The notes under the pieces: generated by a model
Databases searched by the model: none
Seen by the model: only the letters and a program-made list of their open reading frames with translations
What the model was told of the DNA's origin: nothing
Source of the DNA: Anadara kagoshimensis
Taxonomy: Eukaryota > Mollusca > Bivalvia > Arcoida > Arcidae
Length of the DNA: 64,000 bases
NCBI GenBank assembly: GCA_021292105.1
Contig: CM037874.1
Span: 22,069,534 to 22,133,533 of the forward strand
Direction of reading: 5' to 3'
Translations under genes and position numbers: made by a program
Shown here: positions 12,210 to 61,191 of the stretch, piece by piece
Layout: every line of letters starts with the position of its first letter
Numbering within the stretch: the stretch's first letter is position 1

Positions 12210-12240
<31 letters not shown>

Positions 12241-12243
12241 ATA

Positions 12244-12299
<56 letters not shown>

Positions 12300-16817: not shown

Positions 16818-16827
16818 GATGTATGGT

Positions 16828-25400: not shown

Positions 25401-28400
25401 CTCTCTCTCTCTCTTACAGACCTTACCTTTGAAAAATGCAAAACGCTTGATTAAACTTTTTTTAAGTTTTAGCTAAATGAACAGGGACAGAGAAATTTAC
25501 AGTTAATAACCAACACCCCCTGAAAATAATAAAAACAAAAACAGAAAGAGGAATGGACTGAAGTTGACTTTAAGGTTTCATTATCAATATTATATACATG
25601 TATTTTATCAGATTTTGACTTTTAAGAAATACACATACCTGGTACAGCCGCTGGTACACCTCTACTAAGAGCTAACACGGTTGCCTTGGCATTTTGTTCT
25701 GGGGTATATTTTTTTGGACAACTCTGTCCAGCGGTCACCATATTTGGTTTCAATAATGTTCCTTCTAAGTATACATGGTGGTCAGCTAATGCCTTGTATG
25801 TAAATGCTAAAACCTGGAAAAGACAGTTTTACTAAATAATACAAGTTATAACTGAAATGGGATGTCATTTCAAAAGTGTCCCCCAAATAAACCCCAAATG
25901 GAACATCCATGAATCCCAACCATGTGAACGCTGTGAGTTCGAGTCCCGCTCGGACCACATGTGGGAAAGTGAATTTTCCTTGCCGTTGGCCTTTACTGAT
26001 TCACCTGGTATCAGTATAATGGACTGGGGGAGTGGTACGCTTGTCTGCGGCGTACTGACTCTGTGAGCTAGCACGGTAAAGTCGCCTGAGTGCGCGCTAG
26101 TACAAGGCAGACATACAACACACTCACACTTCACATGCATACACAAAATTGTTCATAGATTAATCCATAGAGATTAATTAAATAGTTCTCGTCGTGATTA
26201 GCTGAAAAATTGCTGATGCGACGTTAAGCAACATTCAACCAACCAAACCAACCAACCAACCATGTGAACCATGTGCATAATCAAAATTTGGATAGTCAAT
26301 GTCATGTCTACTCCATCTTAATACTGTTCTTATGAAGTTTCATAAAGATCTGTTTGCGACAAAAGTGGCAAACACCTGTGAAAACACATGTTACCGCAAT
26401 AATGCACAATACACATATTTATGTTAAGTTCAGTATTGCTGCACATACTTATTATAAACAGATAAATGCACATTTAATTTAACAATCAAATAAAATTGAA
26501 GGTAAATTGTAACTGTCATCAATAAATTAAATAATGTTAATTATTTTCTCAGAAGATGAAGTGACTACATTTTTTTAAATGTTTTGGGTTTTTTTTAATC
26601 AATAGTGACTTTTATTATTCTGTACATAATGGTAAAATTTTGTGTAAATTTCCAACATCATTCTATGGTAATCAGAAATTGATATGATCTTTACTGATAC
26701 ATATACAGGATTATGTCTAACCTGTTCTGTTACTTTCTGTGCTGTTTCCAGATCATGCTCTCCATCACACAAAACCTCTGGTTCAACTATAGGTACTAAA
26801 CCATTCTGAAATAATAAAGATGGCATGTTAGAGTATTTTACCAGATACAGTTAAACCTAGAAGCGGAAATGCTAAATTACCCAACAGCCGTTTTCTAAAT
26901 TTTTACATGCTTTTAACAATAGTACAGACTAAAATTAAACCTGTCAAATTAATGGTCTAGTTTAGGTTTGTTTAATACATATTTGAATGAGAAACATTGT
27001 TTTTATACAAAGGACCATTAGAGCAGTCTCAATATTTTATAAATGGGAACAGGGCCCTTATAATCAGTGGTCAAATAGCCAAAATTGTGAAAATAAAAAA
27101 ATATTAAACATTATATATAATTAATAAATTCCATCTTTATGATTGTCTAAAACGGTAACACGTGACCATTTGATCTCACATGATATACCAGGATTTTCCG
27201 GTGAATATAAAATTTGGTGTACGTCATTGATTTTTGTTGACGTTCTCGTGTAAAATGATTAGAACGTCATTAATTAAGTGTGCGCAAGTGATTGTGTCTC
27301 ATCCGGGATGCTTGTTATTTTTTTCATAGAACGCTGATGTTATGGCATTATCAATTTAGTGTGTAATTGATTGTGTCTCATCCAGAATGCCATTTATTTT
27401 TTCATAGAATCAGATTTAAAATGTCAGATTGATCTAATTAATGCGGGATAATTTTAGTGCGATCTGCCAGTCTCAACCAGGGTAAGCAGGGAAATCTAAC
27501 ATCGGTAAAATAGTTAGATTGCCTGGTCACAGGTTTGTGAAAACATTGTCAACCGAAGTGCCACAGTGGCTAAATTATATAATAAAACAGTTATGGACTT
27601 TTAGTGGTTATATATGGTGTGACATTCACCGGAAAAATAAAATATTGACCTCGGTTGTTGCCTTGATCAACATTAATTTTTACGGTGAATATCACACCAT
27701 ATACAACCACTAAAAAGTCCATAATTGTATATTATTGTTTTAATTGCAAATATATATTATTGGTAGTTTTATTTGTTTCCAAAATCATTTTTGACAATTT
27801 AATTAATTTTTCAATTCATTTCCTCATTTTTATCATCACTTTATTATTTTTCATAATTCAATGGTCAGTATTAGTGTTGAAATCCAGGCATCACGCTTGA
27901 ATTCACCTTGGTCAGTCTCCGACTAGTAAATCAAATTATGTGGGAAAACCAAAACTCTAGGATAAAAGGTAAAGGTACATCACATGCATATATGTCAGAC
28001 ATGTTAAAAATTTAAAACTTTATCCAATAGGGTTCGCCGCTGTACCACGTGATACCTTCTAACGTGTCTGCGAAACGCTTGTTTCCAATGGACAAGGAAT
28101 CGCCCAATATGACGTTTTTCCCGTAAAAACGACGTTATTCCGGGAATTTGTGACGTTGACGTTTTCCAAAATGTTCCGCACAAACGTTTAAGAGGTATTC
28201 ACCATGTGGTACAGCGGCGAACTCCATTTTATGCAACAACAATTAAACAAGAAATCTGTGAGCTACTGCTCACTTATTATTCCTCTTTTTAACATACGTT
28301 AGAAAACAAACAAAATGTGAAGTAAATGTCTGGTAGACTTAAAATCTGTCCTTGTGGCATGGAGCCTCATACTTGCCTCGCATACAAAGTTTCAAGTGGC

Positions 28401-31400
28401 TCTAATTAGTAGTTACCAAGAAATCTGTTGCGAAAATCTTTGTTTTAGATGGAAAAAAGGCTGAATGTAAAGAAGGACAGGGATGAAACAGTATACCCCC
28501 TCTTCAAAGTGGGAATGTCAATCCATAAGTGTTTTTTTTTTTTGGGGGGGGGGGGGGAGGGAAGGCAACACTGATAAAATTTGAATCACAACAATACATT
28601 CTTTAGTGGGTAAAACTACACCATCACATTTTGATACCTGTTGACAAATTGATGCATATCTGGCCAATACATTAGCATTCTCAAACATGGCCTGGTAGCT
28701 TGGTGTTTGATCACCAATCTTTAAGACACATCTCCACTTGGCAAACTCTGCTCCATCTTTTTTATACTGAGCACATCTTTCTGCCAGACCATCCAGACCT
28801 GTCAATAAAAATATTAAAATTAAAATCTGAAGAACATGATAAAATCAATACATGGGTACATGCTTGACTTCCAGAAGGCAATTAAACTACATGTATATAG
28901 AATAATGTAAGTAACTGGCTTGTTCTCAAATCCTATTTATGGCCCCATGTCACACTTAGAGTAAACAAGAAAGTCAAAAGGCAAATAGATGAGCATCTCC
29001 AATAAAACTATAGTACAACTGTAAATGCAATGTAATATAAAAACACATTTGTTGACTGGTTGTATTGTCCATGCCTATTAAGCATTTTCTAAACCGTTAC
29101 TGCATGGGTTTACATATTTTGTATATTAGCAGTAACAATCTGTCAGATTCACTAAAAAGTATCTAGCCAATACCATCAGAAAATACGGGGTGTTGGCACT
29201 GCTGTTGATGTTGGATGTACAGTTTGAGCTGTCCTTGAGTTTTGTACTTTCCCTGGTGGTACAGTCCAACCTGCCTTAACGGCCACCTCTGTATAAGGGC
29301 CACCTGCCACCTGCTTATAAAGGCCAGTAAAATTGTATCCCAATTGTTCTTTAATTCTTATTATTTCAACCTGTATATAAAGGCCACCTGCCCATAGAGG
29401 ACACTTTTATTGGTTCCCCTGGGTGGCCTTTATTGACAGGTTTGACTGTATACATATTTTTGTTGTGCATCAAATATATTTCCATCATCATGAATTTTTA
29501 TGTGATTATGATTTAACAATTTGGGAAAAATGAATGTATTATGACTGGAAAATAAATTTATCAAATCATTTTTTGCAGCAGAGATCTGAATAGATTCAGA
29601 CCAAGAATGGGTAGGGCTACAGCATATAATTGGTTTTAAAATGAATGTTTGAAAGATTGTTATTCATATTCATGGAAAATACATGTAGCAGTGTTCTAGT
29701 TCTCAATGACTTCATTACTCTAAGTGTCAATTATGCCAGCAGCCATCCTTATGAATCCCAAGTCACAAAATTTATAACAAATATTCCTTCCAGATCTACC
29801 CACCTTGTGTAGTAGATTCTCCGTCAGTTCCAGCCAGTGGTACAACACCCTTGTCTACTTTTATTCCTGGGATAATTCCTCTCTCTTTCAGGATCTTTGT
29901 AAATGGAACTCCATTTTTGGCATTCTGATAAAATGTTTCATGAAACAGAATAACGCCACTAATGTTCTCTGCTACAACTTTGTCTGCGGTGAACAGAAGT
30001 TCCCTGTATTTTCTACGATTTTCTTCATTGTTTTCAACATTAATGGAAGCTAGTCTTTTTCCCATTGTTCCTGCAAGATGAATTGATGTATACATAAATA
30101 CTAGTAATTATGTCAGAAGATATTCACTTGATATACCTAACACACGAAGGATGAGATATTAAATCTTAATTTTGAATGCAACTGTTTATATATATATTAC
30201 AAGTTGAGTAATGGTGTTTAACTTCCCAGTTAAGAATATTTCACTTATATCAAGCGTCACCAGCTATAGGTGAAAATGCAGAAATTGTCTGTGCCGAGTA
30301 ATGGTGTTTAACTTCTCAGTTAAGAATATTTCACTTACATCAAGACATCGCCTGCTATAGGTGAAAATGCAGAAATTGTCTGTGCCGAGTAATGGTGTTT
30401 TAACTTCTCAGTTAAGAATATTTCACTTACATCAAGCGTCACCAGCTATAGGTGAAAATGCAGAAATTGTCTGTGCCGAGTAATGGTGTTTAACTTCTCA
30501 GTTAAGAATATTTCACTTACATCAAGACATCGCCTGCTATAGGTGAAAATGCAGAAATTGTCTGTGCCGAGTAATGGTGTTTAACTTCTCAGTTAAGAAT
30601 ATTTCACTTACATCAAGACATCGCCTGCTATAGGTGAAAATGCAGAAATTGTCTGTGCCGAGTAATGGTGTTTAACTTCTCAGTTAAGAATATTTCACTT
30701 ACATCAAGACATCGCCTGCTATAGGTGAAAATGCAGAAATTGTCTGTGCCGAGTAATGGTGTTTTAACTTCTCAGTTAAGAATATTTCACTTACATCAAG
30801 ACATCGCCAGCTATAGGTGAAGATGCAGAAATTGTCTGTGCCGAGTGATGGTGTTTAACTTCTCAGTTAAGAATATTTCACTTATATGAAGACATCACCA
30901 GCTATAGGTGAAGATGCAGAAATTGCCTGTGCATTGTTATGATGGCATTATACAGCAGGGTTTTTTATCATGCCACCCCTACCGTGACACGGGACCTCGT
31001 TTAAGTTCCCACCCAAAAGAACCGTGACTAATTTCGTAATGCAAAGTACTTGGCTTAAGGACAGTCACTACTCACTTTCAAGTCTTGGGTCAGACCCGGT
31101 TGGGGTTTGAACCCATGACTTCCCATTTATGAACCAAGCACTCTACTAACTGAGCTACCACAGTGGTCAATTATGTTACGAGTGTCAAAACAGCCATATA
31201 TGGAAATTTTCACATCCATTATTTTCATGGGAATCCTCATTTCAACATGTGCAAGATATTTGCATACTTCTATTCAGGTTTGACAACACGTCTTTCGCAA
31301 TTTGTTCACATCTTCAGTTCTCTCTATTGCACATTGTGCAAGCAAGGCAAAAAGGAACAAAATATTAGTCATTGGGTAAGTCATCTCTTAGTAAGTTACC

Positions 31401-32151
31401 TGTCTACTAAGTAACTATTATATGCAGTAGTATATTGTTACAACTATTTGTGACGGCATTTTTAATGAGAGATGAACTACTAAGCTGCAATATTATACCA
31501 ACAGATCAATGTTTCATTATAATAACCAGTACATAGCATTATGATTAACTAGAATCTGCAAGATTGTTGTGGCCATGAGCACTGACCATTTGTAAAGACC
31601 ACATAATACAGGGCTTCTATTGGACCCTTTAGACCCTGTACCCAACTATGATTTTGCTGAAAATTGATTTCCATTCCGGCTTTCAGAAAGAAACAGTTGT
31701 GTTCTGATGGGTTAGCTCTGAGATATTGTAGATTGTTAACCAGACCTACGAAAGTCAAGGATCAAATGGAAATCTTTACACCATTTTTACAATCATATCT
31801 TAACCAAGATATTCCTGATCTTAAATCTAGCAACACTTCAAATCTTTATATTTTGATCATTTTTAAAATATTCAGGAATTTAAGGATCACCTCTAGCTTA
31901 GAAGTTTTTAGTATTTAGTTTTGTCAAAACTATTCAGCCCTCCCCCTTTCCAAAAAAAGAAACAAAACTTCCCCCTCCCAAAAAAATCTGTGAAAAAGGA
32001 GTCTGTGTATGAGGTATTTATTGACAAATTTATATTTACCTGTAGATTCATCAGCTGCTAGGATACCTTTACCAGGTGCTACAATAGCACAAGCTATCTT
32101 ATGTAGCTCATTCTCCTGCTCAGCAGTTAGGTATTGTGGGAAAACAGGCAT
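22451..32151 (-). CDS. ALDO: Fructose-bisphosphate aldolase, class I (paralogue 2)
   Basis: Same reaction and pathway as its neighbour at 10.9-16.8 kb. Seven coding exons: 32151-32040, 30070-29804, 28798-28638, 26805-26722, 25813-25639, 25183-24984 and 22543-22451. Lengths (112, 267, 161, 84, 175, 200, 93) and phases are identical to paralogue 1, again giving 363 residues. Catalytic positions are all kept (Asp34, Lys108, Lys147, Glu188, Lys230 in [10 protein letters not shown], Arg304). The protein starts [12 protein letters not shown] and ends ...VPKHSY. Differences from paralogue 1 include LKIGDQTPS versus LKIQQYTPS, and RGVPAAVPG where most aldolases, and paralogue 1, have RTVPPAV. An acceptor about 10 bases before the ATG again implies a non-coding first exon upstream. 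Introns share no obvious sequence with paralogue 1, so the duplication is old. Confidence 0.97.
22611..22862. repeat. Interspersed repeat (repeat-R family)
   Basis: Shares phrases with 48462-48675, 47948-48190 and the sequence flanking the SINE at 25.9 kb: AAGTGTCCTCCAAAATGA, AACTAGGAAAT, CCATGTGCACGATCAAAAT, then a TTCATTTGGGGATATAATAA tail. Non-coding family of about 230 bp, of unknown class. Confidence 0.5.
23119..24285. mobile_element. TIR element with TACTGTGAATTCATT ends
   Basis: The left end is TACTGTGAATTCATTAATTT (23119) and the right end is ATTAAATGTATTCACAGTA (to 24285), an inverted pair. Adjacent inner sequence is rich in TTTCGTGG/CCACGAAA. No transposase frame is visible. A second TACAGTAGAACTTCGATGG... 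element appears nested from about 23212. Confidence 0.6.
24334..24686 (-). mobile_element. SINE-B, tRNA-derived, near full length
   Basis: Read on the minus strand, the head begins near 24686 with TGACCACTGTGGTAGCTCAG, then TTGGTAGAGTGCTTGG (A-box-like), a degenerate B box, then a body ending GGATGTTAAACCC. It is a tRNA-derived SINE rather than a tRNA gene: the acceptor and T arms do not pair properly and the body follows directly. Confidence 0.7.
25391..25413. repeat. (TC)n microsatellite
   Basis: A short uninterrupted CT dinucleotide run in an aldolase 2 intron. Confidence 0.9.
25930..26257 (+). mobile_element. SINE-A, 5'-truncated, with target duplication
   Basis: Begins inside the tRNA-like head at GCTGTGAGTTCGAGTCCCG (B box), runs through a conserved body (GGGGGAGTGGTACGCTTGTC, GATGCGACGTTAAGCAACAT) and ends in an (AACC)n tail. 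It is flanked by AACCATGTGAAC at 25918-25929 and 26258-26269, a 12-bp target duplication. It interrupts a repeat-R copy. Confidence 0.8.
27583..27731. repeat. Palindromic MITE in aldolase 2 intron
   Basis: The left arm TTATGGACTTTTAGTGGTTA ... GGTGTGACATTCACC is inverted in the right arm (GGTGAATATCACACC ... CACTAAAAAGTCCATAA). Arms are about 55 bp with the loop near 27657. Confidence 0.7.
28032..28222. mobile_element. MITE with GTTCGCCGCTGTACCAC ends
   Basis: Terminal inverted repeats GTTCGCCGCTGTACCACGTG and CATGTGGTACAGCGGCGAAC flank a 150-bp interior that is more GC-rich than its surroundings. No coding capacity. Confidence 0.7.
29260..29450. mobile_element. TACAGTC-family MITE
   Basis: TACAGTCCAACCTGCCTTAA at the left and GACAGGTTTGACTGTA at the right are inverted, with internal GGCCACCT / AGGTGGCC-type pairs and a central ATCCCAATTGTTCTTTA. 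TA-flanked ends recall Tc1/mariner-derived MITEs. Three more copies lie in CCDC18 introns. Confidence 0.7.
30205..30933 (-). repeat. Eight-unit 91-bp tandem array grown from a SINE-B 3' end
   Basis: Units start at 30205, 30296, 30387, 30478, 30569, 30660, 30751 and 30843, each with GAGTAATGGTGTTTAACTTC and ATTTCACTTACATCAAGACA. The sequence of each unit is the 3' module of SINE-B. The array sits exactly where that module lies in the complete element next to it (30934-31169). Confidence 0.9.
30934..31169 (-). mobile_element. SINE-B head and body
   Basis: On the minus strand it begins TGACCACTGTGGTAGCTCAG, has an A-box-like TAGCTCAGTTAGTAGAG and a good B box (GGGTTCAAACCCC). It continues into the family body (GGGAACTTAAACGAGGTCCC region, TGCTGTATAATGCCATCA) and then the 91-bp array. 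Confidence 0.75.
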
Positions 32152-32600
32152 CTTTATTGACTCTGAAAAAAAAAGAAGTCAAATAAATTTAAAATTAGAG
32201 CCAACTCCAAAAACAACTACTAGTATTCATCACCACATGAAATATCATATTATCATACCCGTGACCAGAAAAATCTAGCTATTTTGCCAATGCTAAGAGC
32301 TTGTTTTGGGCAGGATAGTATTCATCCATGTTTAAGATATCCCTATCTCAAACTGTTACCAGTATAGGATTCTGTAGGTAAGGAATATCATTTTCACTGA
32401 GTAAGATTAAGGATTTATCCAGTGGTGGGATAATAGACGGCTAGTCAGCTGTCTCTGTGAGCTAGCACCTAAAGGTGCCCCCCTCCCCCCATTCCAGAGT
32501 CTGCACATTCGTACATTAACAAGGCAGACATAAGCATCATACAAACTCAGTCATGGTCACATCTGGCCCCAGTTTTCCAAAGCTTAATTAGCTTAATCAA
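32152..32600. other. Upstream flank of aldolase 2 coding exon 1
   Basis: Contains a polypyrimidine acceptor just before the ATG exon. At about 32435-32560 there is an eroded SINE-A body fragment (CTGTGAGCTAGCACCTAAAG, AAGGCAGACATAAGCATCAT). No gene seen. Confidence 0.4.
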
Positions 32601-33275
32601 TGATTAACACAAGATTTAAAATATCAATTAAAATCATCACATTATCAACAATGCCATAGATTTATCATGTTTATAGCCACATACTTTGTTTTGTTGAAAT
32701 TCTATTCATTTACTGCATTTTTAACATTAATTTCACAACAGATTTGAAATTATGCAATATTTAAATTTTGGCTAGTCAATTGATTAAACTAACCAGGCTT
32801 CGAACAACTCTCCCAGGTAGCCTTGAGTGTAATCTGGCTGACACCACAGTGCAAAAAATTTATCAATTAATTCATTTACTCATTCACTAAAGTCTTGTAT
32901 ATGTTTGTTTTTGATTGGTATATAACTTTTGAGTAATCACTGTTTGAACACTTTTACTAGCATTAATCCATCCATCCGTCTATTCATAATTTCATCAATA
33001 ACAATGTTGACTGTATATGCAGTTGTCATTTAAGTATGATAAAAACACTGAAGAAATATTCATGATATTATATTTATTTAATTGAAATTTACTTGCAAAC
33101 TTAAATTCCTTACATATTTAATTACATAATTAATATTCTTAACTGTATGAAATGATTAATGCATAGACATAATATTTTTCCTATAAAATACTCCAGTGAT
33201 TACCGTATATTATTATATGAAAGTGCATTAATGATGGAAGATAATGTATAATGTGCATGATTGGAATCTTGTATA

Positions 33276-33562
33276 ACAACGGGCACTATGGGCCTGATAC
33301 GCTCACCTGATAAATTAAGCTGAAATGTTAAAAAAAGCCCAAAACTGAAACCTCAATTTAAGAATTCACATAGAGATTAAAAGCTTTTTTTCCAAACAAA
33401 TTCAGTATATTCTTTTGCATCTGTGGAATTGACCTTTGAACCCCTTACCTTTATATATCAAAACGATTTTTAGACCAATACCTACACTATTCTAAGGTAC
33501 ATGTCTATACAAAATGTTTTGATTTTCTAGATAATCAAGCATTTCAATATCATTACACCTCT
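33276..33562 (+). mobile_element. Helitron-like 5' fragment (in copy A)
   Basis: AACAACGGGCACTATGGGCC then TGATACGCTCACCTGATAA match the left end of the elements at 1.9-8.5 kb. About one and a half degenerate 145-bp units follow, until a SINE-A interrupts. Repeated in copy B at 37719-38018. Confidence 0.65.
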
Positions 33563-33565
33563 AGA

Positions 33566-33950
33566 GGCTGCAGTGATCTAATGGATAAGACACAAGTCTA
33601 CAAATCCAGGGTCTATCACCGCTGTGAGTTCGATTCCCAGTCAGACCATGTGGGAAAATTAATTTTCCTTGTTGTCTGGCTTTACTGGTTGACCAGCAGT
33701 GTCAGTATAATGTGACTGGGGGAGTTGTATGCTTGTCTGCAGCGTACTGACTCCGTGATCTAGCACCATAAAGTCACCCCGAGTGTGCGCTGGTATAAGG
33801 CAGACCATAAAAAATAAACTCACACTTCACATGCATATACAAACTTGTTCACAGATTAATTCATAGAGATCAATAATGTAGTTTTCGTCGCAAATAGCTG
33901 AAAAATTGCAGATGCGACGTTAAGCAACATCCTACAATTCAACAACAAAT
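33566..33950 (+). mobile_element. SINE-A, full length (in copy A)
   Basis: A tRNA-like head, GGCTGCAGTGATCTAATGGA, carries an A-box-like segment and a B box GAGTTCGATTCCC. It is followed by the family body (CTGGGGGAGTTGTATGCTTG, GTGCGCTGGTATAAGGCAGA) and a GCGACGTTAAGCAACATCC tail. It is inserted within the Helitron-like fragment. Confidence 0.75.
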
Positions 33951-35040
33951 ACACTTCTACTAAGAGGGCAATATATGACTGAAACAAGTGAAACCCAGCC
34001 AGCTATAAAGCTTAATTTCAGCTTCTTAATTTATGATAATTCAACAAATACTCTGTATATAATGCCAGTGATTTTGTTTGCCTAAAATTAATACCGAACA
34101 AAGGTAGTTTCCCCACAAGAAAATGACTACATTTTTTTCCAATTTGATCACTAAAATAATAGTAAAATTCACAAAGAAAAAATGATATAATAGATATTTC
34201 AAAATATAACATATTTGCAGTGAAGATCCTAAGCTATTCTGCTATTGCAATCATGTCATTATGCAGTTTACTTCAAATTTTCCCACTTTAAAAGGTTACG
34301 AAGGCAATTTCTAAAAAAAATTAACAAAATCAATCAATGCAGATTAAACACATAAAAATTAAATTTGAGAAGCAAAATCTCAAAATTCAATGGATATATC
34401 TGAGTTTAAATATATATAACCATCAAACCTAACTGTTGTTCTCCTATGTAAATCTGGATATTTTCTGAGGTGAAGGATCGTTATCAGATTTTTAAGGTTA
34501 CAGGTACATTTGTACATGTAAGAAGATTTATGTGGGTCAGACAAGCAAGTAGATTGAGGACATTGGTAAACAGCTGATTGTATAGGACTATATATATCTA
34601 TCTATCATACAGCCAGTAGATAAGACAAATACCTTAGCATTTTAAAAATTTAAAAACTTGCTTATGTTCTAGTTATTTAAATAACCTTGAATAAAATTTA
34701 ATTGCCATAGCAATATTGTTTGCAAAAAAAACAACAATTGTATTTGATATCAAATAAGGTTATTTTGTATAATAAACTAATTATACATGTAAAGGCAACT
34801 TGAAGGAACCAATAAGAGTGCTTGTTATGTGCAGGTGCCCTTACATACAGGTTCAAATTACATAAAGAGCAATTGAGATTAAATTTTATTTGCCCTAAAA
34901 AGCAGGTGTTCTTTGTACAGAGGTGGTTGTTAATAGGCAGATTTGACTGTGTTTAAATCTTCTACTGAATTGTGCTTTATATGGCCTGCCCTGTTCCATA
35001 TTTTGCTAACGGTGGATTTTATCTGATATTAAGATTCATT

Positions 35041-35338
35041 GATTGAATGGAGTTTTACGTCACAGTCAAGAATATATCACTTATATCAAAATGTAACCAG
35101 CTATATCTGAAATGGCAGAAATCTTTACCTTTGCAGTACACACAGGAGGATTCTTTTACATGACAAGAGACATCAGTGTTTAAGGTCTCTTCGGAAAGAT
35201 ATGTGACTTTCATTTTTAAATGCCGAGTGCTTGACCAAAGCTGCTACTTATTTTCAAGTCTTGTTCAGACTATGTTCAAACCCATAACCTCCCAAATATG
35301 GAGCAAGCAATCTACCGATTGACCTACTGTATTGGTCT
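35041..35338 (-). mobile_element. SINE-B (in copy A)
   Basis: Diverged family member. The 3' module GGAGTTTTACGTCACAGTCA lies at the left and a tRNA-like head (TAGACCAATACAGTAGGTCA on the minus strand) at 35338. Partner copy at 39476-39766. Confidence 0.6.
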
Positions 35339-35934
35339 AAATTTGTGGATATTAAGTCAAATACAAAATAAATTTGATAACTTGGACTCCTGGAAATAGC
35401 TGAAGTGATGGACTGAGAAGATTTACTGAACTGATAACTAAACAGGATAGGATTATTATAATCAGTATTAAAAAGACCGTTGAGCAGAGTGATTTAAATC
35501 TGCAACTTCCTTGATTTTGTGGCGTTTCACATTTGTAACAGGCTTATAAATTAATGTATAATCTGAAGCTAAAGTTACTCACCTCTGACAAATTCAATGT
35601 TTAACTTAATTTCCTGATTTTATTTAGTAATTCTTGTTTCTACCTACCAGTACAGCTACCTTACAGATATTTAAACTTCAGATTTCACATTTCAATGATC
35701 AAGGATATTTATACGCCATAAAATAGCCCATCATTGATTGCACTATCTTTTTAAATGCTTATGTGGAGGTCCAACTAGGATGAGCCCAAGACTGAATTAT
35801 TTCTTGATGATAGGGGCTGTGGGAATTCACAGCCCCTATCTATCTATCATCAATAAAAAGGACAGCTGACAACAGAAATAAATTGGTCTAGGTGCACAAG
35901 ACCTGATCTCTAAGTTATCTTGATTCCATGCCAC

Positions 35935-36155
35935 TTACAGTACAGTCCTGTCGAAAGTTTAACACTAAGTCGGCGAGTTAGTGTCGAATCGTCGGCTCAC
36001 CTCGGCCTTCCGTTAACGATATATCGGCAGCTGATATTATATATCATTCGACAGCTTTTCGTCAACTACATATCCATATCTCGATGGTTCGGCAGCTTAG
36101 TTTCGACTCCTTTTTGTCAGCTCAGTGTTTAACTTTCGACGGATCTGTACTGTAA
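35935..36155. mobile_element. TTACAGTACAG MITE (in copy A)
   Basis: 221 bp with inverted ends TTACAGTACAGTCCTGTCGA and TCGACGGATCTGTACTGTAA. The inner part continues with AAGTTTAACACT / AGTGTTTAACTT. The interior is TCGGC-rich and non-coding. Copy B partner is 40378-40598, also 221 bp. Confidence 0.75.
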
Positions 36156-36228
36156 CAAGCAAATAAAAACCACACAGTCAAATGGCATTGACCTGTCCAC
36201 TTGACCTTTAAATATTTATCGTGGATAA

Positions 36229-36693
36229 TATACATTTATTGCCTTTGTGTGAGGGAGATATGAACATTTGTTCACCCGCAACGAGTCATATTTCCCGAGG
36301 GCGAAGCCCGAGGGAAATGTGAGTTGTTAAGGGTGAACAAATGTTCATATCTCCCTCACACAAAGGCAATAAATTGTTTATTATACCGAAAGATAACCAT
36401 GGCAATAAGAAAGACAGGAAGAAAGAAAATATTTAAAAAAAGACAGTCTGAAAACATCAATCCTTCGCCGATTCATTGTTTTTTCTCCTATCGGAACTCA
36501 TCGGAGGCAAACGCTAGAACGTCAAGACTGATTCTCCGTCGATGACGTCATATCATTGTGACGTCACGGTGTGTTCCGAAGAGGTGGGGTATGATGTTTT
36601 CAGAGGGATACACGATGTTTTCTCCACCCTGATCACATGATCCAACCATCCAATCAAATTACAGATAGCATCGTATTTTTCTAATGAGGTATA
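36229..36693. mobile_element. 465-bp transposon insertion absent from copy B
   Basis: Copy B reads GTGG-ATAA-ATGC where copy A has GTGG-ATAA, 465 bp, then ATAA-ATGC, so ATAA is a target duplication and the ends are TATAC/GTATA. The left part is a 141-bp palindrome (36234-36374) centred on GGGCGAAGCCC. The right part carries two perfect CRE sites (TGACGTCA at 36543 and 36559). No transposase is encoded. Confidence 0.8.
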
Positions 36694-37718
36694 ATAAATG
36701 CATTTACGCCTATGGATTAAGTTTATTTTGTCAACAGAAAGCAAGCACTAATCACATGCCTTGTATATATTAACTGCCAATCCTAATACTACCCATGTAT
36801 TGGGTGGATGGATAGTCCTAATGAAAGGTCAAACGGACAGGTCAATGTTGTTTGCCTATACATCCAAGCCATCACCAACTGGTGCAATGAACATGGATTG
36901 ACACCACAGGTGCTTGGGGACAGGACCCCCAGGAGATACGAAATCAACATTGGATGATGCAACATGAAAATTCAGATGGGCTAAAGTAATAAAGATTTAT
37001 CAACACAGATTACAGCCTTTTTACTACATGATTAACACAAGATTTAAAATATTAATAAAAATAAAAAAAAAATAATAAAAATCATCACATCATCATCAAT
37101 GCCATAGATTTATCATGTTTATAGCCATAAATTATACTTTGTTTTGTTGAATCGTTTTCATTTACAGCATTTTTAACATTAATTTCACAACAGATTTGAA
37201 ATTATGCAATATTTAAATTTTGGCTAATCGATTGATAAAACTAACCAGGCTTCGAACAACTCTCCCCAGGTAGCCTTGAGTGTAATCTGGCTGACACCAC
37301 AGTGCAAAAAATTTATCAACTAATTCATTTACTAAAGTCTTGTATATGTTTGTTTTTGATTGGTATATAACTTTTGAGTAATCACTGTTTGAACACTTTT
37401 ACTAGCATTAATCCATCCATCCATCTATTCATAATTTCATCAATAACAATGTTGACTGTATATGCAGTTGTCATTTAAGTATGATAAAAACACTGAAGAA
37501 ATATTCATGATATTATATTTATTTAATTGAAATTTACTTGCAAACTTAAATTCCTTACATATTTAATTACATAATTAATATTCTTAACTGTATGAAATGA
37601 TTAATGCATAGACATAATATTTTTCCTATAAAATACTCCAGTGATTACCGTATATTATTATATGAAAGTGCATTAATGATGGAAGATAATGTATAATGTG
37701 CATGATTGGAATCTTGTA

Positions 37719-38018
37719 TAACAACGGGCACTATGGGCCTGATACGCTCACCTGATAAATTAAGCTGAAATGTTAAAAAAAGCCCAAAACTGAAACCTCA
37801 ATTTAAGAATTCACATAGAGATTAAAAGCTTTTTTTCCAAACAAATGACCAATTCAGTATATTCTTTTGCATCTGTGGAATTGACCTTTGAACCCCTTAC
37901 CTTTATATATCAAAACGATTTTTAGACCAATACCTAGACTATTCTAAGGTACATGTCTATACAAAATGTTTTTGATTTTCTAGATAATCAAGCATTTCAA
38001 TATCATTACACCTCTAGA
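37719..38018 (+). mobile_element. Helitron-like 5' fragment (in copy B)
   Basis: Counterpart of 33276-33562, with GGGCCTGATACGCTCACCTG at its left end. Confidence 0.6.
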
Positions 38019-38400
38019 GGCTGCAGTGATCTAATGGATAAGACACAAGTCTACAAATCCAGGGTCTATCACCGCTGTGAGTTCGATTCCCAGTCAGACC
38101 ATGTGGGAAAATTAATTTTCCTTGTTGTCTGGCTTTACTGGTTGACCCAGTGTCAGTATAATGTGACTGGGGGAGTTGTACGCTTGTCTGCAGCATACTG
38201 ACTCCGTGATCTAGCACCATAAAGTCACCCCGAGTGTGCGCTGGTATAAGGCAGACCATAAAAAATAAACTCGCACTTCACATGCATATACAAACTTGTT
38301 CACAGATTAATTCATAGAGATCAATAATGTAGTTTTCGTCGCAAATAGCTGAAAAATTGCAGATGCGACGTTAAGCAACATCCTACAATTCAACAACAAA
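38019..38400 (+). mobile_element. SINE-A (in copy B)
   Basis: Counterpart of 33566-33950; head GGCTGCAGTGATCTAATGGA, tail GCGACGTTAAGCAACATCC. Confidence 0.75.
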
Positions 38401-39475
38401 TACACTTCTACTAAGAGGGCAATATATGACTGAAACAAGTGAAACCCAGCCAGCTATAAAGCTTAATTTCAGCTTCTTAATTTATGATAATTCAACAAAT
38501 ACTCTGTATATAATGCCAGTGATTTTGTTTGCCTAAAATTAATACCGAACAAAGGTAGTTTCCCACAAGAAAATGACTACATTTTTTTCCAATTTGATCA
38601 CTAAAATAATAGTAAAATTCGCAAAGAAAAAATGATATAATAGATATTTCAAAATATAACATATTTGCAGTGAAGATCCTAAGCTATTCTGCTATTGCAA
38701 TCATGTCATTATGCAGTTTACTTCAAATTTTCCCACTTAAAAAGGTAGAAGGCAATTTCTAAAAAAAATTAACAAAATCAATGAATGCAGATTAAACACA
38801 TAAAAATTAAATTTGAGAAGCAAAATCTCAAAATTCAATGCATATATCTGAGTTTAAATATATATAACCATCAAACCTCACCGTTGTTCTCCTCTGTAAA
38901 TCTGGATATTTTCTGAGGTGAAGGATCGTTATCAGATTTTTAAGGTTACAGGTACATTTGTACATGTAAGAAGATTTATGTGGGTCAGACAGCAAGTAGA
39001 TTGAGGACATTGGTAAACAGCTGATTGTGTAGGACTATATATATCTATCTATCATACAGCCAGTAGATAAGACAAATACCTTAGCATTTTAAAAATTTAA
39101 AAACTTGCTTATGTTCAAGTTATTTAAATAACCTTAAATAAAATTTAATTGCCATAGCAATACTGTTTGCAAAAAAACAATATTTGATATCAACTAAGGT
39201 ATCATAAACTAATTATACATGTAAAGGCAACTTGAAGGAACCAATAAGAGTGCTTGTTATGTGCAGGTGCCTTTATACACAGGTTCAAATTACATAAAGA
39301 GCAATTGAGATTAAATTTTACTTGCCCACAAAAGCAGGTGTTCTTTGTACAGAGGTGGTTGTTAAGGCAGGTTTGACTGTATTAAAATCTTCCTGTGGAA
39401 AAATTGCACTGAATTGTGCTTTATATGGCCTACCCAGTTCCATATTTTGCTAATGGTTGATTTTATCCGAGATAA

Positions 39476-39766
39476 AATGGAGTTTTACATCACAGTCAAG
39501 AATATTTCACTTATATCAAAATGTAACCAGCTATATCTGAAATGGCAGAAATCTTACCTTTGAAATATGCAAGGAGGATCCTTTTACATGACAAGAGACA
39601 TCAGTATTTAAGGTCTCTTCGGAAAGATATGTGACTTTCATTTTTAAATGCTGAGTGCTTGACCAAAGTTGCTACCTATTTTCAAGTCTTGTTCAGACTA
39701 TGTTCAAACCCATGACCTCCCAAATATGGAGCAAGCAATCTACCAATTGACCTACTGTATTGGTCT
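39476..39766 (-). mobile_element. SINE-B (in copy B)
   Basis: Counterpart of 35041-35338 with small indels. Confidence 0.6.
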
Positions 39767-40377
39767 AAATTTGTGGATATTAAGTCAAATACAAAATAAA
39801 TTTGATAATTTGGACTTCTGGAAATAGCTGAAGTGATGGACTGAGAAGATTTACTGAACTGATAACTAAACAGGATAGGATTATTATAATCAGTATTAAA
39901 AAGACCTTTGAGCAGAGTGACTTAAATCTGCAACTTCCTTGATTTTGTTGTTAGTGTGATTTTGTGGCGTTTCACATTTATAACAGGCTTATACATGTAT
40001 AATCTGAAGCTAAAGTTACTCACCTCTGACAAATTGAATTTTTAACTTAATTTCCTGATTTTATTTAGTAATTCTTGTTTCTACCTACCAGTACAGCTAC
40101 CTTACAGATATTTTTAAACTTCAGATTTCACATTTCAATGATCAAGGATATTTATACGCCATAAAATAGCCCATCATTGATTGCACTATCTTTTTAAATG
40201 CTTATGTGGAGGTCCAACTAGGATGAGCCCAAGACTGAATTATTTCTTGATGATAGGGGCTGTGGGAATTCACAGCCCCTATCTATCTATCATCAATAAA
40301 AAGGACAGCTGACAACAGAAATAAATTGGTCTAGGTGCACAAGACCTGATCTCTAAGTTATCTTGATTCCATGCCAC

Positions 40378-40598
40378 TTACAGTACAGTCCTGTCGAAAG
40401 TTTAACACTAAGTCGGCGAGTTAGTGTCGAATCGTCGGCTCACCTCGGCCTTCCGTTAACGATATATCGGCAGCTGATATTATATATCATTCGACAGCTT
40501 TTCGTCAACTACATATCCATATCTTGATGGTTCGGCAGCTTAGTTTCGACTCCTTTTTGTCAGCTCAGTGTTTAACTTTCGACGGATCTGTACTGTAA
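40378..40598. mobile_element. TTACAGTACAG MITE (in copy B)
   Basis: Counterpart of 35935-36155, same length, with a single visible change near 40525 (ATCTTGATGG for ATCTCGATGG). Confidence 0.75.
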
Positions 40599-41563
40599 CA
40601 AGCAAATAAAAACCACACAGTCAAATGGCATTGACCTGTCCACTTGACCTTTAAATATTTATCGTGGATAAATGCATTTACGCCTATGGATTAAGTTTAT
40701 TTTGTCAACAGAAAGCAAGCACTAATCACATGCCTTGTATATATTAACTGCCAATCCTAATACTACCCATGTATTGGGTGGATGGATAGTCCTAATGAAA
40801 GGTCAAACGGACAGGTCAATGTTGTTTGCCTATACATCCAAGCCATCACCAACTGGTGCAATGAACATGGATTGACACCACAGGTGCTTGGGGACAGGAC
40901 CCCCAGGAGATATGAAATCAACATTGGATGATGCAACATGAAAATTCAGATGGGCTAAAGTAATAAAGATTTATCAACACAGATTACAGGCTTTTTACCA
41001 CACGCATTTTCAACATTGTATAAAAAGTTTTGTCAATATGTTTTGACTAATTCTTAAAGATTTTATCGGGTTAGAAGAGTCGTTGACCGGTGATCATATT
41101 TTGTGAACAGTAATCAAGTTTTAGAAATCGATATTCAGGAAATGTGTATTGGTTTTTGTGGAGTATAAAATATGAAATTGATAATTCATCATTATGTTCC
41201 TTGTTATATAGAAATACTTACTAAACACACAAAAAAATCAAGAAAACTACACACAGTCTTTCCTTTCCACTCAGTCTTCAAGAAGTACACAAACAAGCGA
41301 AGGTGTGTCCGATATGGCACGATTTGATTGGTTGGAATATTTGGCCTTGACCTTGGAAGAAACAGCTGACAGTCACGTAGCCTATACACTGTTTACGTTG
41401 AATATTATTCACTAAAGTGACGATAAATCATCTCTAGAACAGGTTGAGGTCACGGGATTTATTTCTTAAATTATAAATTTATACTTTATTCAGTAGCACA
41501 TTACCGTACTAGATCTAGTAAAACAAAGGTTAAAGTTGTGAAAAGTCATACCTACAGTACTTT

Positions 41564-47821: not shown

Positions 47822-50800
47822 TTATTTGTTGTCGAGATCCATTAACTGTTGATCAATCATTTGTTGTCGTAATTCATTTTCCCGTATCTTTTCTTGAATT
47901 TCTTCCATTAGGTAGCTACAACAAAGACAAAAAGTTATAAGTGAAATGAAATGTCCTTATCAAGCTTTCCCCCAACGAACCTAAACAAGGAAATCCATGT
48001 TTTCCAAAATATGAATAACCAATGATGACACATGTAGTCCACATAGGGATTGTTTTTTTTTTTTTTCAAGTTTCATAAAGATCTGCTTATTAGTTTTTGA
48101 GGAAAAATAGCAGACAAAATGTTTATGAAATAAATGTATGGTAGTAAACATTATGTCCCCCCTCCCCCAACAATTGTTTGGGGACATAACAATGAAGTTA
48201 GTCGAGTGGAGAACAGAGTAGCAGAATTGTGTTGTTTACCCTAGTCAAGACTTACATTTATACTGAGGTGCTCAGTTCTGTGTTGGTAGAGGAAAACAAG
48301 AGTGGAATGAGTGTACATATATCACTTATCTTTGGTAAGTAAAGAATAAGTGTGCAGAGTAGCTAATGGCGTTGTTTGCTCGAGTCAAAATTATTGCATT
48401 TATACTGAGGTGGTTAGTTCTGAAATGATGGAGGGAACCAGAGTTAAAAAAAATACCACCCTTAAGTGTCCCAAAAATGATTACCTTTAACTAGGAAATG
48501 CACAATCATGTGCACAATGGAAATATAAATAGCCAAAGGCACATTTACTCTAACCAAAGATTGTTCACGTGAAGTTTCATAAAGATCTGTTAAATAGTTA
48601 TCAAGAAAAGTGACAGAAAATAATGGTTAAGAGTAAATACTATATCCCCCCACTTCATTTTGGGTACATAATTACGACAATGTACAACTTATGCATACCT
48701 ATCACATTCATCTAACTGTTGTTCTCCAGACTGACTAATCTCTGATACTACATTTGGTTGATACATCCCTACAGCAGTCACAGGCTCTGTAAATATATGT
48801 ATACATGTAAATAACTGTAAAATATGAACTACATGTACATGTACAGCAGTTTTGTTATCATTATTTAACCATTGAACTGTCTTAAAATGGTATTTAAAGT
48901 GTTAATACTTCCATTACCATGTAAAGCAAACTGAAAAAATGCACTGTAGTGTAGTTATATTTACATATACATTTTTTGGAATTTTTTTTCTGATTTTTTT
49001 TTAAATCCTGAAATAAATATTAAAACGCTGTTATGTACCACATGCATTTACTATCACGGGATGTCATTAGTATAGGCATAAACAAGAAATGAGTGATATC
49101 ACTTTAGCAATAGTAATTGACGGATCGCCGGCCATGCCTACAATGTTCCGACAAAGGCCCAGCATGCTTGAATTACATGCAAAAAGAATGAAAACGCGAC
49201 CTGAATTGTGATATTTAATGATGTCAATGACACTAGAATGTCATTAGTTGCTGTGGTGCTGCTTTGGTACCGTGATGGCGGCCAGTGTCGGAACATAAAA
49301 GGCGTGGCCGGCGATATGTCAATTGTAGTACATTTTTGGAAACAAGAGCTGTAACAACAGTGCATTACTCATATAAATGTACAAGTAACAAACAAAGCAC
49401 AAAAATGTTTAAGTGTGATGGTTATATACAATAAAAACTTCCATCAATCACAGCCATCTGATCAGTGTGATTTGGGTGTTATACACAGTTTTAGCAATAA
49501 AACAAGGGAGACTGTTTGAAGGAAAACGTATTTAGGAAATAGACTTTTAATCTTTGGTACTTCCATAGCATTTGGCAATGAGAGAGATGGTAAAGTTATC
49601 AAGGGACATTATCACAAGGTTTTACTGTAATTGGAAAACTTTCCTGGCCAGGAAATATGCAGCACTTTTTATTACTTACCGATTTCATATTCTCCAGGAA
49701 GATGATCAGATTGTCTAGGTCTCGACCTCGGTGTTACTTGTCTCAAATTATGTGAATTTTGTCCTGGAGATGAGTTTTTTATTTGATGTTTCTGTTTATC
49801 ACTTGTAGAATCAGCACTATGATTTGTATGTTTCACTGTTGTCATAGCAACACCATTCTGACTAGGATCTCTAAAATGTTTGTTTGTAGTATTATTAATT
49901 TGCAAAGCATGTTGCTGATTTATTAAATTTAACTGTTCTTCATTTTGCCTGTGTCCTTCAAACTGACCATGATCAGTTCTAGGCTGACCATTAGCACTAA
50001 TTGGGTCAACATTTGGCTGAACTCTCTGGAAGTTTGAAGCTCGGACTTTGAATGTCTGAATACTGGAAGAGTACTCAGAATTAAATTGATCCTCACTAGA
50101 GGGCACCGTTTCTGGAAGAACACCTTCTGAATTACTTCCCTTGATGTCATTTATTCGTTCAATTTCATGTGATTCAGTTGGAGGAGATATTAATGCTGAA
50201 CTCTGGTATACAGAGTTACCTCCCATTGTTCCTCCAAAACTATCCATAGATCTGTAAGATGCCATTGTTCTCTCCATACCAGATATTCTAGCCTGAAGTC
50301 TAGCTATTTCTGCATCCTAAAAAAATAAAAGTTGAAAAATACATTAAGTGATTGATGTACAAATCACCAGCTGTCAGATAAATTTATTTCAAAATTTGTG
50401 AAAATAATCCTTTTTAAAGTATTTTTCCTAAATTTGCTAAAATAATCTACCTTTTTGAAGTAATTAGTAGCCATTGACAATTTTAGCTTTCTCAGCCCGA
50501 TTGTTTAAATCTCCCTTACCCTTACCAGTGGGTTAGTGAAAAATTGTGCTTTAGCCAATACATGTATTTCTGAAAATTCTGTTCAAAAGTTTACCCACAC
50601 TACTGGTATTATTCTTACTAATACAAGCAGTTAAAGGCCAAAACTATTTTTATATCAAATATTTTTTATATTTTAATAACATTTTAAATTTTCACCAACC
50701 ATTTGGTTAAGCTAACACAGCTTTCAAGAACCGACAATAATGGTAATCACTAATGAACAAACCTACCTTTAGCAATAACGATTCATTAGCAGCATTAACT

Positions 50801-53800
50801 ACCTGTTTCTTTGCTACAATTACCCGATATTTCTCCAACAAACCTACCTTTAGCAATAACGATTCATTAGCAGCATTAACTACCTGTTTCTTTGCTGCCA
50901 TTACCCGATATTTCTCCAACAAACCTACCTTTAGCAATAACGATTCATTAGCAGCATTAACTACCTGTTTCTTTGCTGCCATTACCCGATATTTCTCCAA
51001 CAAACCTACCTTTAGCAATAACGATTCATTAGCAGCATTAACTACCTGTTTCTTTGCTGCCATTACCCGATATTTCTCCAACAAACCTACCTTTAGCAAT
51101 AACGATTCATTAGCAGCATTAAACTACCTGTTTCTTTGCTGCCATTACCCGATATTTCTCCAACAAACCTACCTTTAGCAATAACGATTCATTAGCAGCA
51201 TTAAACTACCTGTTTCTTTGCTGCCATTACCCGATATTTCTCCAACAAACCTACCTTTAGCAATAACGATTCATTACCAGCATTAACCACCTGTTTCTTT
51301 GCTGCCATTACCTGATATTTCTCCAACAAACCTACCTTTAGCAATAACGATTCATTAGCAGCATTAACTACCTGTTTCTTTGCTGTCATTACCCGATATT
51401 TCTCCAACAAACCTACCTTTAGCAATAACGATTCATTAGCAGCATTAACTACCTGTTTCTTTGCTGCCATTACCCGATATTTCTCCAACAAACCTACCTT
51501 TAGCAATAATGATTCATTAGCAGCATTAACTACCTGTTTCTTTGCTGCCATTACCCGATATTTCTCCAACAAACCTACCTTTAGCAATAACGATTCATTA
51601 GCAGCATTAACTACCTGTTTCTTTGCTGCATTACCTGATATTTCTCCAACAAACCTACCTTTAGCAATAACGATTCATTAGCAGCATTAACTACCTGTTT
51701 CTTTGCTGCCATTACCCGATATTTCTCCAACAAACCTACCTTTAGCAATAACGATTCATTAGCAGCATTAACTACCTGTTTCTTTGCTGCCATTATCCGA
51801 TATTTCTCCAACAAACCTACCTTTAGCAATAACGATTCATTAGCAGCATTAACTACCTGTTTCTTTGCTGCAATTACCTGATATTTCTCCAACAAACCTA
51901 CCTTTAGCAATAACGATTCATTAGCAGCATTAACTACCTGTTTCTTTGCTGCAATTACCTGATATTTCTCCAACAAACCTACCTTTAGCAATAACGATTC
52001 ATTAGCAGCATTAACTACCTGTTTCTTTGCTGCGATTACCCGATATTTCTCCAACAAACCTACCTTTAGCAATAACGATTCATTAGCAGCATTAACCACC
52101 TGTTTCTTACTGGCCATTTCCTGGTGTATCTCCAACAAACCTACCTTTAGCAACAACGATTCATTACCAGCATTAACCACCTGTTTCTTTGCTGCCATTA
52201 CCCGATATTTCTCTAACAGACCTACCTTTAGCAATAATGATTCATTAGCAGCATTAACCACCTGTTTCTTAGCGGCCATTTCCTGGTGTATCTCTACCAA
52301 CTGTTGTTGAAGCTGTTCAAACTGATCTTGGTAATGTTGTTCTAGCTCCTGTAGTTGTATTGATTTTTCATCTAAGTTTTTGTTCAGCATGTCTTTATCT
52401 GTTTGTAACTGTAGAATTTCTTCTTGTAACTGTTCAGTCTGTCAAACAGAATAGAAAATTACATGCCATGATAAGCATGGATAAATGTGTTAAATCAATA
52501 TGAATATTAAACTTATCAATAGATGGATTTTTATTTTTATCCCCACCTTTTGAAGGGTGAGTGGGGGGGGGGGGGGTTGGGAGAGAGAGAGAGAGAGACT
52601 GAATTAAATTCTGTCCTTCTGTCCAAGCAGAACTTCTTGTCAGGAGTAAATCTCAAAAACTTTGAAGCACTATTTTATGAAACTTGATGCAAAGTGCAAA
52701 GCATCAACATTGATAGAAGATACATATATCTTTATCCAAGGTTGATTCCCTCATTTTCCTTGGATTTATCTCCCTTAGACTGACAAGTAGCTACTGGTGA
52801 TGCATTCTATTTCACTGACTTTGCTTATTTCATTTTATAGAACAGTTATAAAATTGATCCAATCCACTAAGTTTCAGCAATCCATTAAAGCACATTTAAT
52901 CCACTATACACATTAAAATCCATAAGAAAGAAAAATGGAATATAACATTGTTCTTGACAAAAACCAGAACACTGACTCTTGAGAGCCAAATACCCCAGCT
53001 CCCAACAATAAATGTTTTCCCCCAGCCTTGAGCTTTGAGATATGACATTGATTCAAGGTCATGGCACACCTTTGGAACATGAAGATTATTCATATGAAGT
53101 TTTATTACAGTCATCAAAATGGCCAAATCACAACTGTACATGAACAGGCAGACATGGTGATTTCTATATCCCCTTAAACTAGTTTGCAGGGGGTATAATA
53201 ATACTTAAAGATTTTACCTGTTGTGAGGATAATGCCTGTCTGAGATCCAATTTAACTTTCTCCATATCTTTTTTGGCTTGAGTTATATCCTTCTCTGATT
53301 TTATAAGTTCATCCTGTCTCTCCTGTAATATACATATGTAACCATGTTTGCGTTAAGTCTCAAAATTTAATCTAAACATGTTAATGTGGTGTGCGAGTTT
53401 TGTGCAAGTATTTACAACGTATGATCTGCTTATTACTGTCTCACACGTATGGCAACATTAAGAGTGCCAGTACACTCTTGGGCAATGTTGCAAATAAACA
53501 TCATACACAGCCCATTATACTGGTACTGATGGGCCTACAATACAAGTTAATGAACAAAACAGCAAAACAAGTTTAACACCAGTATATTATAGGGGTTCAA
53601 AATGTTTTGTAATGAAAGGTCCAGGACCTTTTGGCTTTTTTTCATATCAACACTGAAAGGTCCATATGCAGTTAAATAATCATGAGGATAAAGTAGAATT
53701 ATCCTGGTAAACCTAGAACTGTCTCTTTAGAGCCAAATAACCCACGGCCCCAACATCTGCAACAGTTTAATGTTTTCTCGTGACCTTGACAATTCCAATA

Positions 53801-59871: not shown

Positions 59872-61191
59872 ACAAGAGGTCCATGAGCCTTAATGCTCAC
59901 ATGCAGCTGAGTACATATCTCATGCAGAGGTTCAATGGTCATTGACATTAATTAAAGAGAATGTCCAAATAAATTTTCAGCAGTAAGGGCCAATTATATG
60001 TAAGGATTTTTTGCAAATTTATTATAACATAACTAGTCATAAGAGTGCTACATATAATATATCTGAAATCTAGCTACAATATATTGTTTATAAACAACTA
60101 AAAAGGTAAAGAAAAATTTGAACCCATGACCTTAATCTAAATATCGCAATGAATATTAGGTCAATACCTACAATTTAGAAGCCTATACAAAAAGTTTATA
60201 GTTTTTGAGATAATTAACCATGTCAGTATTTGTTTGCATCAGTGACCTTGACTTTTAAACTCATGTCCTTCATTCATATATCAAAATGATCGTTAGGCCA
60301 ATACCTACAATATTTTAACATATATGCCTATACAAAAAGTTTATAGTTTTTAAGACAATTAATCATTTCAGTATTCATTTGCATCTATAACCTTGACCAT
60401 TAGACCTATGACCTACATTCATATATCAAAATGAACATTGTGTAAATGCCTATAACATTCTGATATACATGCCTATAGAGAAAGTTTATCATTTTTGAGA
60501 TAATTCACCATTTCAGTATTTGTTTGCATCTATGACCTTGACCTTTGAACCTATGACCTTCGTTCATATATGGAAATGACCGTAAGGCAAATGCCTACAA
60601 TATTCTAATATACATGCCTACACAAAGAGTTCAAAGTTTTTGAGATAATTAACCATTTCAGTATTCGTTTACATTTATGACCTTGACCTTTGAACTTATG
60701 ACCTCTATTCATATATCAAAATGACCGTTGTGCAAATGCCTACAGTATTCCAATACACATGATGATGATGCCCATACAAAAAGCTTATAGTTTTCAAATA
60801 TATTGACAAATACATTAATTTTGCAATTTCCCCCTCAAGTACCTTGCCATTATCTCATTTTGGCCCCTAAAGCTACAATATGTGCAAATCTAAAACTAGG
60901 TGCCCATAGTGTTTTACATGGAATATCTAAGTTATATCTCTTGTAGGTTCAGAGCAGATGATTTTTAAAGATTTTCAAAAATTTCCCCTTTATGGGGCCC
61001 CAAGGGAACATAATCCTTGCATTTGTGCAAATCTGAAAACCCCTTACTTGACCATTACTGTCAAATATCATCCAATTTGGCTCTGTAGTTTTGGAGGAAT
61101 TGATAAAAAATGTGAAAAGTTTATACATGATGCACATCGGACGAAGATAGATGGCAATTGCACATCTGAGCCTTTGGCTCAGGTGAGCTAA
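59872..61191 (+). mobile_element. Diverged Helitron-like element with 145-bp units
   Basis: Starts ACAAGAGGTCCATGAGCCTT, carries about five diverged 145-bp units (CCTTGACCTTTGAAC-type words near 60252, 60398, 60543 and 60688) and ends TGAGCC-TTT-GGCTCA-GGTGAGCTAA at 61191. It is the same design as 1941-8451 but clearly an older or separate subfamily, with a different hairpin stem. No protein is encoded. Confidence 0.7.

Follow-up and report, generated by a model that had tools for sequence, protein, structure and literature searches.

Background

Tandem repeats located at the exon-intron boundaries of human genes have been the subject of a study that is reportedly the work of De Grassi and Ciccarelli. 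In human genes of segmental duplications, variable internal tandem repeats occur at exon-intron boundaries, and 27 intron modifications are described (PMC2812944). According to the Rogers model, introns can be gained by tandem duplication of a segment that contains AGGT, with cases in ATP2A1, potato RdRp and fission yeast; in the fission-yeast genes a 24-bp AGGT segment was multiplied and the intron extends across 2 or 4 copies (PMC4974935). Tandem 5' splice sites, e.g. of the GYNGYN type, are donors that lie close together (PMC1779574, PMC2423196, PMC2878309), and the zinc-finger array of Prdm9 is a coding minisatellite with high turnover of its units (PMC3890296). Here we describe a minisatellite that multiplies the 5' splice site of a CCDC18-like exon in the clam Anadara kagoshimensis. 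It lies in a stretch of 64,000 nucleotides (the window; C18:22069534-22133533, where C18 is contig CM037874.1 of assembly GCA_021292105.1) of the 1.115-Gb genome. A search of the open-access literature returned no paper on repeated or duplicated splice donor arrays, and none on a variable number tandem repeat (VNTR) with a splice donor in each unit giving isoforms.

Results

A splice donor repeated 19 times at the end of one exon

On the minus strand of the window, AAGGTAGGT was found 19 times, all within 50761-52228; a search of both strands gave no other occurrence in the window. All 19 donors read AAG|GTAGGT and are located at the end of a CCDC18-like exon (52226-52438, minus strand; 213 bases, 71 codons, phase 0) that ends ...NESLLLK; exon borders of this gene were set from frame and homology. 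The G of the donor GT is at 52225 in donor 1 (52220-52228), at 52144 in the second and at 50766 in donor 19 (50761-50769), after which the unique intron sequence GTAGGTTTGTTCATTAG begins. Between the first and last donor (50767-52225, minus strand) there are 18 units, of which 15 measure 81 bases, one 80 (51658 to 51578) and two 82 (51254 to 51172 to 51090). Tandem Repeats Finder reported a period of 81 bp with 18.8 copies and 96% matches at 50756-52280, a unit length within the size range of minisatellites and VNTRs (tandem units of about 10-100 bp).

Between donor 19 and the acceptor the intron is unique for 450 bases (50317-50766, minus strand), and with donor 1 in use its total length is 1909 bases. 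The next CCDC18-like exon (49675-50316, minus strand, 3' border approximate) is preceded by the acceptor TTCAACTTTTATTTTTTTAG, begins with DAEIARLQ and is likewise in phase 0. Donors 1-8, in the stretch of units 1-7 (51659-52225, minus strand), keep the frame and would add 0-7 modules of 27 amino acids. Unit 8 (51579-51658, minus strand), with its 80 bases, shifts the frame and introduces a stop at 51613-51611, 32 bases ahead of donor 9; thus donors 9-19 beyond it give no extended protein, although the local codons are identical at every donor, donors 9-19 included. The initial annotation of this DNA had proposed a 19-fold donor at 81-bp spacing, a next exon on the matching phase and in-frame use of the first eight donors with 0-7 modules, and all of this is in agreement with the counts given here.

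Donor 1 restores the ancestral junction of a CCDC18-like protein

Relatives were searched with the joined exons plus modules as query, and among the best 7,993 candidates by shared words that were scored, a Mytilus edulis protein (P0001) and P0002 were found. The exons of the window copy match Mytilus P0001 in order, at 35-76%. When the middle part of P0001 was used as query, 24 proteins were obtained, P0001 included; CCDC18 of mammals, sturgeons and paddlefish and a CCD18-like protein of Mya arenaria were among the named ones, together with a chiton entry named outer dense fiber protein 2-like and unnamed or hypothetical entries. Via P0001 the gene is thus similar to named CCDC18 proteins, as had been claimed from the letters of the sequence. 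Pfam gave no domain above cut-off and a single sub-threshold match, DUF1664 (E 0.56). Against the genome, P0001 produced at least 13 matches in two exon clusters, both on contig C18 (67 of 148 candidates scored).

The junction is free of gaps in 16 of the 24 homologous entries, some species being represented by several: Mytilus, P0002, two gastropod entries (Batillaria), two bats, the chiton, eight of sturgeon or paddlefish and one nemertean. Because these homologues continue without a gap at the residue of donor 1, this 5'-most donor, with its junction NESLLLK-DAEIARLQ, gives the ancestral protein, which upholds the initial view. Two further entries align too weakly (E 0.002) for the junction to be judged. 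The remaining six, all camelid and from three species, carry 13 extra residues exactly at the junction. In these camelid CCDC18 entries (P0129-P0134) the junction with its insert reads ALLIK-TIMNNAAMNTGVQ-ESELTRLQ, which suggests an independent gain of a splice site or an exon; judging from these sequences, the CCDC18 junction has taken extra residues at least once elsewhere. Repeated modules were present in none of the 24 homologous proteins.

A typical unit joins intron start to exon tail

The anatomy was read from a comparison of the units with the end of the exon and with the unique intron sequence that follows donor 19. A typical unit consists of 12 bases that resemble the intron start (GTAGGTTTGTT, then G for C) and 69 bases of exon tail (23 codons), and at the joint intron base 11 or 12 is fused to exon codon -23. 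Probably, to judge from this anatomy, a single duplication crossed the exon-intron boundary and its product was then multiplied. Unit 2 still resembles the exon; in the 17 others the first half has diverged in a shared manner (EKY... in place of EIHQEM...). Since Mytilus P0001 and P0002 retain the I, E and M of the exon, the changes of I to K and E to V arose within the array.

Donor and acceptor scores were calculated from approximate matrices and are a rough guide, with -3.5 for one inferred real acceptor. The main donor scored 10.0, above four donors deduced elsewhere in the gene, which ranged from 5.0 to 8.9 (the 5.0 site is uncertain). Weaker donor-like sites are found in the same local phase, namely CRG|GTAAT, 16 times in the 18 units, and CAG|GTRGTT, 18 times in the 18 units with one more occurrence within the exon. 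Among acceptor-like sites of the array the highest score was -1.6, vs 8.6 for the acceptor at 50316. The earlier statement that the units contain no acceptor-like pyrimidine tract thus holds in the sense that there is no strong acceptor; weak ones may be present, given the value of -3.5 mentioned above. At the unit border the AG of CTAAAG scored about -2.3 and has a weak pyrimidine tract, and the donor at this place is strong. The word TGCTAAT, which resembles a branch point, was counted 16 times over the 18 units; in the one measured, it precedes the end of CTAAAG by 20 bases.

A second chromosomal copy differs in divergence along its length

A colinear second copy of the region is located at C18:11.43-11.48 Mb, 10.66 Mb from the window copy. 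Outside the array the two copies differ by 453 substitutions in 20,412 aligned bases (2.2%), which are very unevenly spread: in intervals of 500 bases, runs without any difference alternate with intervals at 4-8%. Heterogeneity was pronounced (chi-square 392, 42 degrees of freedom) in 43 of 49 intervals, six with few aligned bases having been excluded, and eight intervals were at zero. As such mosaic divergence matches recombining haplotypes, it suggests that the second copy is the other haplotype or allele, which the assembly has retained. The alternative may be segmental duplication accompanied by gene conversion.

For the extent of the segment, 14 flank and control pieces of 10 kb were taken, six of which served as queries. 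Those from 11.58 and 11.70 Mb had partners near 22.25 and 22.40-22.42 Mb. No partner near the window copy was found for pieces at 11.33, 12.00 and 13.00 Mb, but these searches were crowded with repeats (38 of 29,439, 1 of 6,255 and 39 of 12,692 candidates scored, respectively) and the misses are weak. If they hold, the duplicated segment may be bounded at roughly 0.28-0.66 Mb. Near-identical pairs also occur outside the CCDC18 segment, since a control piece from 40 Mb matched a partner at 99% over 2.2 kb, at a distance of 0.27 Mb.

Two further differences between the copies were recorded. A segment of about 4.4 kb is present in two tandem copies in the window (32961-41563) and is single in the second chromosomal copy. 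The window copy also has a CCDC18 exon further upstream (L014; C18 near 22,140,580) whose length deviates from the second copy at two places, close to 71050 and 70975 when the window coordinates are extended; these differences break the frame and may reflect an allele, decay of a paralogue or an assembly error.

The array changes much faster than its surroundings

Immediately around the array the copies are nearly identical. There are no differences in 449 bases of the intron downstream of it and one in the 213 bases of exon 52438-52226. Upstream of the array, global alignment gave 0 differences in 695 bases with three gaps, and BLAST, which covered part of these roughly 700 bases, counted 3 substitutions. 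The window copy has 18 units and the second copy 22 (two copies, their allele status being deduced from the mosaic divergence); the first five units are identical and thereafter the order differs. In the second array 22 donors are intact and one is broken, donors 1-10 are in frame, the first 9 units are open and the frame ends at a stop in a unit of 97 bases. As number and order of units differ while the flanks are nearly identical, the array changes much faster than its surroundings, and the repeat is hypermutable.

No purifying selection is detectable on the units

Variants were counted from unit 3 onward, i.e. excluding the first two units of both copies, any unit that does not measure 81 bases (three in the window) and a 178-base stretch (two units) of the second copy. 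The nine distinct substitutions, a small number that makes the test weak, comprised 7 nonsynonymous and 2 synonymous ones, compared with about 66% and 31%, respectively, expected without selection; thus, within these small numbers, no purifying selection on the units was detected. In 11 inferred exons, the frame-broken upstream exon excluded, 18 synonymous and 8 nonsynonymous differences separate the two copies, which shows that the CCDC18-like gene is under constraint. For the contrast between units and exons, Fisher P was 0.02. Unit length changes of -1, +1 and +16 all break the frame and occur in both copies (80 and 82 bases here, 97 in the second). In addition, a core Ile common to the two closest homologues is replaced by Lys in 17 of the 18 units.

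The ancestral coiled coil keeps one heptad register through the junction. Each module of 27 residues slips the heptad by one, and the register is restored only with 0 or 7 modules. The 13-residue camelid insertion causes the same shift, 13 and 27 both being 6 modulo 7, and because of this the slip would not be a strict bar to the modules. The initial annotation had suggested, as one of two possibilities, a coiled coil of tunable length. The ratios of 7:2 in units vs 8:18 in exons, the exchange of Ile for Lys, the heptad slip, the frame-breaking length changes in both arrays and the lack of modules in all 24 homologues do not bear this out.

Two other candidate signals were rejected. When the broken donor in the 178-base stretch was added by hand, one of 10 distinct substitutions fell into the 9-base donor, where 1.1 were expected (P(<=1) = 0.69), which gives no sign of selection on the donors. 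The open frame is not informative as evidence of coding either, since 29% of 7,614 enumerated boundary-spanning duplications were both open and in frame, and the unit also lacks stops in one of its three antisense frames.

Other features of the window and the genome

Two neighbouring genes are located on the minus strand at 11955-16943 and 24942-32178; their exon translations resemble fructose-bisphosphate aldolase. Satellite repeats of 145 bp occur at 2026-7914 and 60181-60761, and the first of these arrays also shows periods of 290 and 435 bp. Matches to COX1 were seen at three places on one large contig (L030-L032, C4 near 4.49-4.54 Mb). They contain TGA as in the mitochondrial code, one reads through with that code, and they appear to belong to an inserted or misjoined mitochondrial genome. 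The COX1 sequence is 87% identical to that of Tegillarca granosa and 80% to that of Barbatia decussata, with a further hit at 90%, and identifies the animal as an ark clam.

Discussion

We consider it rather probable that the array is an unstable minisatellite, an intronic by-product, and that donor 1 is mostly used. A tandem duplication would have spanned the CCDC18 exon-intron boundary and copied the last 23 codons of the exon together with its donor and roughly 12 bases of intron. The 81-bp minisatellite produced in this way would then have grown and shrunk by unequal exchange or slippage, each unit adding a complete strong donor, so that a ladder of about 20 equal donors came to open the intron. 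Donor 1 would be used in most transcripts, because it is transcribed first and defines the normal 213-base exon and the conserved protein, and the remaining units would be intron. Donors 2-8 would produce minor in-frame variants, tolerated rather than useful, and donors 9-19 of the window copy a premature stop followed probably by nonsense-mediated decay.

Several points weigh against this reading. The choice of donor is deduced from sequence, and duplicated donors can favour the downstream site, as reportedly seen in in-vitro work on splice-site proximity. The identity of the first five units in both copies is what coding constraint would also give, and the same expectation covers the open frame of the first 7 (window copy) or 9 (second copy) units; the test for constraint, with its 9 distinct substitutions, is weak. 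Moreover, the junction can tolerate extra residues together with a slip of register, since the 13 residues that six camelid CCDC18 entries bear at the same place are 6 modulo 7.

The camelid insertion would fit an isoform ladder in which several in-frame donors are used at real levels and CCDC18 carries 0-7 or 0-9 modules, the range being set by the allele. The 19 identical donors are strong (10.0 vs 5.0-8.9 for the four inferred donors of the gene) and the frame stays open through units 1-7 of the window copy and 1-9 of the second; however, coding constraint on the units is undetected, each module slips the heptad, frame-breaking units interrupt the array and modules are absent from the 24 homologues, and we regard such a ladder as doubtful. 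Slightly more doubtful still is its stepwise form, in which the probability of stopping at a donor would fall with distance and graded CCDC18 with 0-9 modules would be tuned by the fast-changing repeat number. Alternatively, competing donors might recruit U1, slow splicing and lower CCDC18 output as repeat number increases, i.e. act as decoys or a kinetic brake. Such an effect could draw on the many donor-like sites in the exon and intron start, 19 of them strong and no fewer than 35 weaker (16 + 19), and on donors 9-19 that lead to a stop. As the array differs freely between copies with near-identical flanks, which speaks mildly against strong effects on dosage, we think it unlikely.

Removal of the 81-base units one or several at a time, as exonic mini-introns or by recursive splicing, would make use of the fact that CTAAAG|GTAGGT provides both AG and GT, with AGGT at every unit border, and of the TGCTAAT that precedes the AG by 20 bases and is found 16 times in the 18 units. 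This principle has been reported for AGGT duplications, including multi-copy arrays in fission yeast (PMC4974935). The pyrimidine tract is weak and the acceptor scores about -2.3 vs 8.6 at 50316, and even allowing for the rough matrix we judge this route highly improbable. Least credible is an assembly artefact, in which the entire array or its number of repeats would be invented. Assembly of long arrays is difficult and the upstream exon of the window copy has two frame-breaking length differences that the second copy lacks, but the array of the second copy has its own order of units and both begin with the same five.

Most work on how one of several identical donors is chosen has relied on artificial constructs with two sites. 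The present assembly seems to contain two alleles of natural origin, one with 19 and one with 22 intact donors, all identical and almost evenly spaced, and as both arrays share exon context and acceptor they constitute a natural test of this choice. They could reveal whether a donor wins by its position (first transcribed, exon length) or because it lies near the acceptor, and in what way products are filtered by frame and decay. In addition, the locus may represent an early stage of intron growth by duplication of the intron's own start.

Like Prdm9, the clam locus is an intragenic repeat with fast turnover of units. Unlike in Prdm9, the coding status of its units depends on the choice of donor, and coding constraint is undetected. 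With the human boundary repeats (PMC2812944) it shares the nature of a copy-variable minisatellite that can alter splicing, but the human units average 30 bp in 4 copies and form novel introns. The clam unit of 81 bp, in contrast, provides a complete donor about 20 times in an existing intron. Introns that arose by AGGT duplication (PMC4974935) also contain tandem AG|GT copies. Unlike in those, the clam AG is not in a favourable acceptor context, and the duplications lengthen an intron that already existed and multiply mainly donors. Known tandem donors usually come in pairs. As in the clam, in-phase or shifted tandem donors compete for one acceptor, but they are only a few bases apart (2-12 in PMC2878309), whereas the clam has 19-22 identical donors 81 bases apart. 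In number and regularity, the clam donors exceed the cases described in the parts of PMC2812944 and PMC4974935 that are drawn on here.

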